DNA of 64,000 nt from Candidatus Rokuibacteriota bacterium (lineage in GTDB: Bacteria; Methylomirabilota; Methylomirabilia; Rokubacteriales; CSP1-6). The DNA lies in assembly GCA_016866775.1 (NCBI GenBank), contig VGLJ01000005.1:1-64000 (forward strand), read 5' to 3'. The notes beneath the pieces were generated by a model. It was not told where the DNA came from. It did not search any database and saw only the letters and a list, made by a program, of their open reading frames with translations. A program made the position numbers and the translations under genes. This document shows, piece after piece, positions 951 to 40,695 of this stretch (positions are counted from its first letter, which is position 1; each line of letters opens with the position of its first letter).

Positions 951-1256
951 ATGACGGCGGAGACGATCCCGGTCGAAGTCGTGGCGTGGGTGACGAAGTT
1001 CGTCGGCGGTAACGGATCGCAACGGCGCGTGTTCGACGAGCCCGCGACGCCCGAGGCTACCGTGCGCTCGGTGCTGCGCGGGCTCTCGGCGCGCTATCCG
1101 GAGCTGCACCACGCGCTGTGGAGCGACGGCGAGATCGGTCCGCACGTCGAAGTCCTCGTCAACGACGCGGTGCTCGGCGTCAGCCACGAGCTCGACTCGA
1201 AGCTGAAATCTGGCGATCGCATCGCGCTCGTCGGCGCATACCTGGGGGGCCTGTGA
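951..1256 (+). CDS. MoaD/ThiS-family ubiquitin-like protein
   Basis: A 101-aa beta-grasp-type protein ending in ...LVGAYLGGL. Middle motifs HVEVLVNDAVLG and LKSGDRIALVGAYLGG match sulfur-carrier proteins of the MoaD/ThiS family, which are activated at a C-terminal Gly-Gly by a MoeB/ThiF enzyme. Here one Leu follows the Gly-Gly, so either the tail must be processed or the protein works differently. An in-frame ATG at 942 is an alternative start. Its stop overlaps the start of the formate dehydrogenase gene, which suggests translational coupling and a link to molybdopterin supply. A MoeB-rhodanese gene that could activate it lies at 39508-40695. Confidence 0.65.
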   Translation: MTAETIPVEVVAWVTKFVGGNGSQRRVFDEPATPEATVRSVLRGLSARYPELHHALWSDGEIGPHVEVLVNDAVLGVSHELDSKLKSGDRIALVGAYLGGL

Positions 1257-38553: not shown

Positions 38554-39363
38554 TCAGTACCCCCGCGCGCGGTCGACGACTTCGCGGAGCGGCTGGCCGG
38601 CTGCGAAGCGCTTCAGGTTCTCGACGAACAGCGCGGCGACGAAGCGGTCGCGTGTCGGGTGGAGACCACCGACGTGCGGCAGCACCACGATCCCCTCGGT
38701 CGTCCAGAACGGATGCTCGGACGGGAGCGGCTCCTTGCGGAAGACGTCGAGCACCGCGCCGGCGATCGTCTTCCCCTTCACCGCCGCGATGAGGTCATCG
38801 TCCACCACGAGGTCGCCCCGCCCGAAGTTGAGGAGCCATGCCGAGCGCTTCATGCGCGCGAGGTGCCAGCGGTTCATGAGATCGCGCGTCTCGGCGGTCG
38901 ACGGCAGGAGCAGGAGCACGAAGTCCGCCTCGCGCAGCACCTCGTCGGTCCCGTCCGGTCCGTACACACGCTCGACGCCGGGCACCTTCGCCGCGTCGCG
39001 CTTGGTGCCGATGACGCGGATGTCGAGCGCGCTCGCCTTGCGCGCCACCTCGGCGCCGATCGCGCCGAGCCCGAGGACGCCGAGCGTCATCCCGCCCAGC
39101 GTCGGATTGATCCGCCGCGTCCATTTGCGCGCGCGCTGATCGAGCACGATCGGGCCGAACTGCTTGGTGATCAGGAAGAGCGCGCCCAGGATGTGCTCCG
39201 GCATCTGCAGCCGGTGCGTCCCTCGCGCGCAGGTCAGCGTCACCTTTGGCGGGACGTCGGGTGACGCGAGCCACTGATCCATGCCGCCCGTGAGCGACTG
39301 CACCCAGGTGAGGCGCGGCGCGCGCGTCGCCATCGCTTTCGGCGGGCGCCACGCGAGCAGCAC
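38554..39363 (-). CDS. D-2-hydroxyacid dehydrogenase family protein
   Basis: A 269-aa NAD-binding protein. The Rossmann motif LGVLGLGAIGAEVARKASAL is near residue 95, the Arg-containing loop is LLNFGRGDLVVDDDLIAAV, and the His of the catalytic relay is VLPHVGGLHPTRDRFVAAL. Family members have about 310 aa. Here family-like sequence (TTVLLWNDEPQPYLAAAEA) continues upstream in frame to 39507, right after the moeB stop, but without a standard start codon. The first is GTG at 39363, which would lose the N-terminal lobe. A missing or unusual start is therefore likely. Confidence 0.7.
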   Translation of the reverse strand: MLLAWRPPKAMATRAPRLTWVQSLTGGMDQWLASPDVPPKVTLTCARGTHRLQMPEHILGALFLITKQFGPIVLDQRARKWTRRINPTLGGMTLGVLGLGAIGAEVARKASALDIRVIGTKRDAAKVPGVERVYGPDGTDEVLREADFVLLLLPSTAETRDLMNRWHLARMKRSAWLLNFGRGDLVVDDDLIAAVKGKTIAGAVLDVFRKEPLPSEHPFWTTEGIVVLPHVGGLHPTRDRFVAALFVENLKRFAAGQPLREVVDRARGY

Positions 39364-39507
39364 GTCGGCCCGCGCGAGCAGCGCGTCGTCGGGCTCGGCC
39401 GGGAAGGGGGCGACGACGAACTCGAGCTCGCGCGTGAGGCCCGCCGCCTCAGCGGCGGCGAGATACGGCTGCGGCTCGTCGTTCCACAGCAGGACGGTGG
39501 TTATCGA

Positions 39508-40695
39508 CTAGCCTCTCGCGCCGGCCGGCTCGGTGGCGCAGGTGTCGCTCGTCGCGTGGTGGATCGAGAGATCCTTGATCGTCGGCGACGTGCCGCACAG
39601 CGGGCACTTCGGATCGCGACGGAGCTTCACCTCGCGGAAGCGCATGCCGAGCGCGTCGTAGGTGAGCAGGCGGCCGATCAGCGGCTCGCCGAGCCCGAGG
39701 ACGAGCTTCACCGTTTCCGTCGCCTGCACCAGCCCGATCACTCCTGGGAGCACGCCCAGGACACCGGCCTCGCTTCAGGAGGGGACGAGGCCCGGCGGCG
39801 GCGGCGACGGATAGAGGCAGCGGTAGCACGGGCCCTGGTTCGGGGCGAAGACGGTGGCCATGCCCTCGAACTGGAAGATCGAGCCGTGCACGTTCGTCTT
39901 GCCCGCGAGGTAGCACGCGTCGTTGACGAGGTAGCGCGTCTCGAAGTTGTCCGAGCCATCGACGACGAGGTCGTAGTCCTTGATCACGTCCATCACGTTG
40001 TCGACCGTGATGCGGTACGGCAACGAGATCACGTTGACGTCGGGGTTCAGCGCCTTCAGCGTGCGCGTGCCGGATTCGACTTTCGGCTTGCCGACGTCCG
40101 CCGTGGTGTGGAGCACCTGCCGCTGCAGGTTCGTGATGTCGACGGTGTCGCCGTCCATCAGCCCGATCGTGCCGACGCCGACCGCGCCGAGATAGAGCGC
40201 CGTCGGTGAGCCGAGGCCGCCCGCGCCGATGAGCAGCACCTTGCTCCGCATGAGCTTCCCCTGGCCCTTCTCGCCGACCTGGTTCAGGAGGAAGTGACGG
40301 CTGTAGCGCTGGATCTGGTCGGGCGTGAGCGGGATCTCCTTCACGACGGGAAGCCCCGACTGCGCCCATTTCGCGTAGCCGCCCTGGAGGTTGATCACCG
40401 TCTCGTAGCCGAGCTCCTTGAGCTGCTTGGCCGCGAGCACGGAGCGCAGACCGGTCTGGCAGTAGAGCACGATCGGTGTCTTCTGATCGGCCACCGTCCC
40501 CGCGATGCGGAACTCGAGGAAGCCGCGGCTGATGTTCGTCGCCGCTTCGATGTGGCCGTCGCGATACTCGTCGGGGTCGCGCACGTCGATGACGGCGACC
40601 GGCTCGCCGTTCTTCAGGCGCTTCTCGAGCTGGTCCGGCCCCTCTTCGGGGACGACCTGCCGCGCCTCCGCGATCATCTCCTTCAGCGTCTTCAT
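39508..40695 (-). CDS. moeB: MoeB/ThiF-rhodanese fusion, candidate selenoprotein
   Basis: A sulfur-carrier-activating enzyme (395 codons). An N-terminal rhodanese domain with active loop YCQTGLRS (Cys79) precedes an E1-like adenylyltransferase: GAGGLGSP at 158-165, DGSDNFETR, and a zinc site of CYRC (Cys290, 293) and CPLC (Cys364, 367). At codon 307, in [23 protein letters not shown], the family has its conserved cysteine ([12 protein letters not shown]; the acceptor Cys of Uba4/MOCS3). The frame stays open and family-like for 88 more codons. A SECIS-type hairpin lies 13 nt after the TGA (39742-39761). I infer selenocysteine; a nonsense mutation is the alternative. A -10 TAAGAT (40703-40708) lies 7 nt before the ATG. 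Confidence 0.72.
39742..39761 (-). promoter_or_regulatory. Candidate bacterial SECIS hairpin in moeB
   Basis: In the mRNA, UCCUGGG (39761-39755) pairs perfectly with CCCAGGA (39748-39742) around the 6-nt loop CGUGCU. The loop begins 20 nt after the UGA, has a G in its first two positions and contains GU, and the stem has 7 bp, which all fit the published bacterial SECIS pattern. The pairing depends on CCA and GGA codons, which are uncommon in this GC-rich coding style, so the hairpin may be selected. Confidence 0.6.

Follow-up and report, generated by a model that had tools for sequence, protein, structure and literature searches.

The rhodanese-MoeB locus and its in-frame UGA

The window analysed here is a stretch of 64,000 nucleotides from a Candidatus Rokuibacteriota genome (contig VGLJ01000005.1), and its minus strand carries a gene for a rhodanese domain fused to a MoeB/ThiF-type E1, an enzyme that activates small sulfur carrier proteins. 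The coding sequence (39508..40695) contains an in-frame UGA codon that we consider a candidate selenocysteine (Sec) codon. It starts at ATG 40695, runs for 306 codons up to the TGA at 39775-39777 and continues for 88 codons to a TAG at 39508-39510, giving a read-through product of 395 residues. A preliminary description of the window had placed the TGA at codon 307 of a rhodanese-MoeB frame, and translation from ATG 40695 agrees with this. The span proposed there (39742-40695) had the correct start but stopped at a hairpin located within the gene, which ends at 39508.

The read-through protein is composed of an N-terminal rhodanese domain (residues 20-112, 40360..40638; PF00581, 3.4e-21, 76 bits) followed by a ThiF/MoeB adenylation domain (residues 131-365, 39601..40305; PF00899, 6.8e-83, 277.9 bits), and the TGA falls inside the latter. 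The rhodanese active-site Cys79 (TGC, 40459..40461), a putative persulfide carrier, is invariant in an alignment of 23 sequences. The same holds for the two Cys pairs that are predicted, by homology with MoeB and ThiF, to bind zinc: CYRC (Cys290 and Cys293, 39817..39828), which lies 5' of the UGA, and CPLC (Cys364 and Cys367, 39595..39606), which is reached only by read-through and belongs to the 88 family-like codons already noticed after the TGA. The adenylation domain, the two CxxC zinc pairs and a fold matching structures 1zfn and 1jw9 assign the protein to the MoeB/ThiF E1 enzymes, and the nearest solved structures retrieved with Foldseek were E. coli ThiF, E. coli MoeB and Uba4. Against the NCBIfam model for rhodanese-MoeB proteins (NF006444, cut-off 449), the read-through protein scored 523.7 bits and the piece ending at the TGA 398.7 bits, below the cut-off.

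Consistent with the earlier proposal that the TGA replaces a conserved Cys, codon 307 aligned with Cys184 of E. coli ThiF, with the equivalent Cys of MoeB and with the Cys of the "TSCGEAG" loop of Chaetomium Uba4 (the crossover-loop Cys202), and the column is invariably Cys or Sec in the 23-sequence alignment. An AlphaFold model of the read-through protein had a mean pLDDT (predicted local distance difference test) of 85.9. The block around Sec307 (residues 301-310) is the least certain of the core, at 57, and in this it resembles the crossover loop of apo Uba4, which is disordered (PMC7527816). Residues 312-380 are modelled with confidence, including a helix (312-333) and two strands (342-347 and 352-357), so the part made by read-through is predicted to be integral to the domain.

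Conservation of the UGA codon and selection beyond it

We compiled a non-redundant set of 55 Sec-type Methylomirabilota sequences with the rhodanese-MoeB architecture, sharing less than 95% pairwise nucleotide identity. The set spans four families of the order and an additional one, and its aligned codon is TGA in all 55. Likewise, among 80 homologues collected from GTDB contigs, the Rokubacterial ones covering the site have TGA, with the exception of one pair (L045 and L046), and in 95 Methylomirabilota genomes every full-length rhodanese-MoeB match (families f1-f4 and f7) carries it, the exception again being that pair, fragments in genome G054. Apart from that pair, relatives thus presented neither a Cys codon nor an unrelated stop at this site, the comparison that had been suggested as a check. 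Family f7 entries listed with two TGA codons were rejected as double-Sec enzymes; the second TGA, at codon 391, is where these genes terminate. More generally, TGA is the true terminator in 37 of the 53 genes with a complete end, so that UGA is not globally reassigned and any recoding would be local.

Over 1431 sequence pairs, the median ratio of non-synonymous to synonymous substitution rates (dN/dS) was 0.18 upstream of the UGA and 0.20 downstream of the hairpin; judged from these sequence comparisons, the codons past the UGA are under the same purifying selection as those upstream.

A maximum-likelihood tree placed the Sec sequences in a single group, with Cys-containing outgroups from Luteibacter and from metagenome-assembled genomes (MAGs) labelled Deltaproteobacteria. 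Well supported branches place two Cys sequences from G054, on contigs C209 and C393 (L131 and L132), within the Sec group. Both have TGC at the codon and a disrupted stem, as in GTGCTCGGCGTGCTGCCCGG. We interpret this pair as a natural Sec-to-Cys reversion inside the Rokubacterial lineage, with loss of the hairpin; its host genome is uncertain because G054 is 9% contaminated and also holds a Sec copy. Outside these genomes, plasmid records contain distant MoeB/MoeZ genes at 60-80% DNA identity, and IMG/VR contains one relative at 51%.

A second rhodanese-MoeB N-terminus, 70% identical, was observed at the end of a contig (L134:3-395; G083:C272, minus strand). It has a TGA at residue 79 (VLYUQTGLRS), the position of the rhodanese active-site Cys, and ends with the contig at residue 131. 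This single case may be a Sec-containing rhodanese or an error.

The hairpin downstream of the UGA

A candidate hairpin of the selenocysteine insertion sequence (SECIS) type lies at 39742..39761 on the minus strand. Its stem pairs UCCUGGG (39755-39761) with CCCAGGA (39742-39748) around the six-nucleotide loop CGUGCU (39749-39754), which has a G at position 2. As previously described, it begins 13 nucleotides after the TGA, and the loop begins 20 nucleotides after it. When the peptide was randomly recoded with synonymous codons according to the codon usage of the gene family, seven Watson-Crick pairs in the observed register occurred in only 0.05% of trials. Considering nine-codon stretches of the 55 Sec-type sequences, the lowest synonymous diversity relative to expectation was found at codons 311-319, which correspond to the hairpin. 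Leu313 is encoded by CTG in 55/55 sequences and Pro317 by CCA in 50/55, although CCA accounts for only 80 of the 1447 Pro codons of these genes.

The selD gene of the same genome contains a comparable element, TCCTGGA-GATC-TCCAGGA, starting 14 nucleotides after its own in-frame UGA and sharing the stem core TCCTGG/CCAGGA with moeB. Across the 5.13 Mb of the genome, TCCTGG-N4-8-CCAGGA was matched five times (four for a reversed control pattern), and of these five only the moeB and selD sites have any TGA within 40 nucleotides upstream, at 16 and 17 nucleotides respectively; in both, the frame is open on either side of the TGA. This suggests that one SelB recognises both stems as a shared element.

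Selenocysteine machinery of the genome

The window belongs to a 5.13-Mb genome that is 97.5% complete and whose nearest records are Candidatus Rokubacteria. A search for the Sec machinery, proposed beforehand as a check, recovered all of it. The genes selA (C43:32777-33871; 503.9 bits for SelA) and selB (C43:30823-32703; 380.8 bits for SelB) and a tRNA-Sec with anticodon UCA (C43:34974-35067; 70 bits) are clustered on one contig, and selD is located at C31:24695-25639. Across the phylum Methylomirabilota, SelA was detected in 84 of 95 genomes and tRNA-Sec in 78 of 94. One 100% complete MAG (G039) has both, and its scan returned no PF00899 E1. A ThiS/MoaD-family carrier gene (G000:C43, L185:5557-5859, minus strand) stands directly upstream of tRNA-Sec, near selA-selB, and a carrier of similar kind adjoins tRNA-Sec at 5 of 11 other Rokubacteriales loci examined.

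Sulfur carriers and E1 enzymes

Only one protein of the window genome exceeds the PF00899 cut-off, and it is the product of the UGA-containing gene; the second match (20.9 bits) is an open reading frame resembling a flavin adenine dinucleotide (FAD)-dependent oxidoreductase. The same genome encodes nine PF02597 carriers in diverse settings: a ThiS on contig C42 (TIGR01683, 75.2 bits) adjoining ThiG, a MoaD/SAMP-like carrier that immediately follows a cysteine synthase (TIGR01139), a MoaD-MoaE fusion, a carrier adjoining a TtuA-like tRNA thiolase, the carrier next to tRNA-Sec described above, and a ThiS-family carrier in the window itself (1038-1250, plus strand), just before a formate dehydrogenase-like molybdopterin oxidoreductase. 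The remaining carriers are near genes that, by eye, resemble molybdenum or tungsten enzymes. At a threshold of E<=1e-15, PF00899 matched nothing but the UGA gene in 46 of the 56 family genomes; in the others, the additional matches are mostly much weaker. One selenoprotein therefore probably feeds all carriers, with the proviso that a second E1 was possibly missed in the draft genome.

The gene neighbourhood of moeB was considered as a clue to function and set aside: dTDP-sugar genes flank it on one side and other conserved genes on the other, and neither is informative on sulfur carriers. Immediately downstream, a D-2-hydroxyacid dehydrogenase gene (38554-39510, minus strand) shares the frame of moeB, and its N-terminus (TTVLLW...) is conserved. 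No ATG, GTG or TTG separates the moeB TAG from that N-terminus, and no obvious start is seen at this point in relatives either.

Proposed role of Sec307

The locus combines the features expected of a bacterial selenoprotein gene: a UGA at a conserved Cys position, a downstream hairpin, the Sec machinery in the genome and selection beyond the UGA. Selenocysteine is almost certainly the right reading of this codon, and none of the refutation tests that were run contradicted it. We consider it very probable that the gene encodes a selenoprotein E1, a carrier-activating enzyme and probably the sole E1 of the genome, in which Sec-tRNA and SelB would read UGA307 under the guidance of the hairpin 13 nucleotides downstream.

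Two known enzymes suggest what this residue might do. Uba4 adenylates the carrier and transfers it to the crossover-loop Cys202 as a thioester, which the rhodanese persulfide then attacks (PMC7527816). For MOCS3, Cys239 is reported to break a disulfide between carrier and rhodanese, thereby releasing the thiocarboxylate (PMC5372717). Since a rhodanese with an invariant Cys79 is built into the Rokubacterial enzyme, a Uba4-like cycle in which Sec307 acts as selenoester former or as resolver is the best-supported reading, and we infer such a cycle here. The ThiF domain would adenylate the C-terminal Gly of small ThiS/MoaD-type carriers, and the fused rhodanese domain would, by homology with Uba4/MOCS3, provide the sulfur as a Cys79 persulfide. 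Sec307, in a flexible crossover loop adjoining the carrier C-terminus, would most likely serve in the exchange step of thiocarboxylation. It could take the carrier as a reactive selenoester that the Cys79 persulfide then attacks, or it could resolve a carrier-CO-S-S-Cys79 acyl disulfide through a Sec-Cys selenenylsulfide, freeing the thiocarboxylated carrier; we lean slightly towards the resolver. To our knowledge, neither selenoester formation nor acyl-disulfide resolution by Sec on a ubiquitin-like protein has been described for any E1.

This single E1 probably serves the carriers of thiamine, molybdopterin and tRNA thiolation, and perhaps the cysteine-synthase-linked carrier. The broader proposal, namely that in most Rokubacteria a single Sec E1 is the sole sulfur gateway to all ThiS/MoaD-type carriers, with Sec forming a selenoester or resolving the acyl disulfide of a ubiquitin-like protein, is one to which we give slightly less than an even chance. 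If true, these bacteria would depend on selenium for thiamine, molybdopterin, tRNA thiolation and carrier-dependent cysteine synthesis.

Alternative explanations

The standard code reads UGA as a stop, and the gene could accordingly yield a 306-residue truncated protein followed by a decaying remnant. The ordinary folding energy of the hairpin, taken alone, would agree with this. We nevertheless find a genuine stop highly improbable, given that purifying selection past the UGA equals that upstream, that TGA is fixed in the whole Sec-type set, and that the truncated product would lack half of the zinc site and falls below the family cut-off. The window derives from a MAG, in which a TGC or TGT codon might have been altered by a sequencing or assembly error; since dozens of MAGs obtained independently, with nucleotide identities of 63-97%, share the TGA, which also settles the earlier concern about a base-call error, the likelihood of this is vanishingly small. 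An open frame would equally result if UGA were read as Trp or another amino acid, through a genome-wide code change or leaky suppression. This is extremely improbable as well, as the site is Cys and not Trp in homologues, TGA terminates the same genes and the genome has the full Sec machinery. A different matter is a selenoprotein whose Sec307 is non-catalytic in thiocarboxylation and mainly guards against oxidation or against self-conjugation by the thiocarboxylated product. Uba4 Cys202 does give protection from Urm1-COSH self-conjugation when oxidants are present, and thiocarboxylate formation does not strictly depend on it (PMC7527816, PMC12954526). The Cys/Sec invariance among aligned homologues fits a direct step just as well and does not separate the two; we regard the purely protective role as unlikely, without being negligible.

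Several observations weigh against a hairpin-guided selenoprotein E1 with Sec307 in the exchange step. The folding energy of the hairpin is unremarkable (z -1.13) and did not clearly differ between Sec genes and GC-rich Cys homologues (p=0.065). Free energy was thus dropped as a Sec/Cys discriminator, not being significant; as it is uninformative, the case rests on synonymous conservation and register. An Rfam search of the locus gave no match for the hairpin. Covariation does not provide a clean proof either, because the hairpin of family f7 has a different build and pairing register from those of f1-f4, yet its loop also begins 20 nucleotides after the UGA. A few MAGs have SelA but no moeB (G039 and G084), possibly owing to assembly gaps. 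Regarding the chemistry, the preliminary description had U307 replacing the E1-like catalytic Cys. This is sound in so far as the Uba4 equivalent forms a thioester (PMC7527816), but too strong for bacterial enzymes, as E. coli ThiF Cys184 and MoeB Cys187 form none (PMC13139853). Moreover, Uba4 thiocarboxylates Urm1 even without its crossover-loop Cys (PMC12954526). The dispensability in Uba4 and the lack of a thioester in ThiF and MoeB mean that the enzyme may benefit from this residue without requiring it.

Comparison with known systems

Selenoproteins of the MoeB family have been catalogued since 2005, with 11 Sargasso Sea sequences (PMC1088965) and then 19 Global Ocean Sampling (GOS) sequences (PMC2398784), which are the ocean-metagenome report that the preliminary description had mentioned. 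Sec-MoeB is also listed in recent reviews (PMC9312934, PMC13188914). The first of these names the marine protein MBT7809913.1, and the 2026 review refers to a Methylomirabilota MAG for which 63 selenoproteins are predicted. The enzyme type itself is therefore already known; the rhodanese fusion may set this one apart as a variant, depending on how the marine sequences compare. Literature searches that combined Rokubacteria or Methylomirabilota with terms for selenoproteins returned no paper on a Sec rhodanese-MoeB gene, and the order-wide fixation and sole-E1 status of Sec-MoeB are apparently unreported.

Sec-MoeB has so far been a catalogue entry from metagenomic reads, and we found no function or genomic setting for it in the literature. 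Here it is the only MoeB/ThiF-type E1 of a nearly complete genome and is present order-wide, with Cys outgroups and one reversion. The sole E1, the fixation across the order, the Cys outgroups and the nested reversion together make the benefit of selenium to ubiquitin-like activation and sulfur transfer testable. In practical terms, annotation by standard procedures will cut short the only E1 of these genomes, ending it at residue 306.

The marine Sec-MoeB proteins (COG0476/pfam05237) are likewise MoeB/ThiF-family E1 enzymes whose genes have a TGA in frame at a Cys position, together with a hairpin of the bacterial SECIS type. In contrast with them, the Rokubacterial genes come from soil and groundwater MAGs, are fixed across an order and usually encode the only MoeB/ThiF-type E1; the Rokubacterial enzyme also has a fused N-terminal rhodanese, the comparison with the marine proteins being by family name and domain only. 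The Cys form of PRK08762/NF006444, for example in Luteibacter and in relatives labelled Deltaproteobacteria, shares the domain order at 50-58% identity but has Cys (TGC or TGT) at the Sec position. E. coli ThiF and MoeB share the adenylation fold (template modelling score 0.94 by target length), and ThiF Cys184 is aligned with Sec307, whereas they lack a fused rhodanese and serve separate carriers as separate enzymes. Finally, Uba4 and MOCS3 share the E1-rhodanese fusion, and the Uba4 crossover-loop Cys is aligned with Sec307, but their rhodanese is C-terminal where the Rokubacterial one is N-terminal, and they use Cys and not Sec; mycobacterial MoeZ is likewise an E1-rhodanese fusion with a C-terminal rhodanese and Cys. 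By its architecture, the Rokubacterial enzyme is thus not a member of the Uba4/MOCS3 group, although it may work like Uba4.
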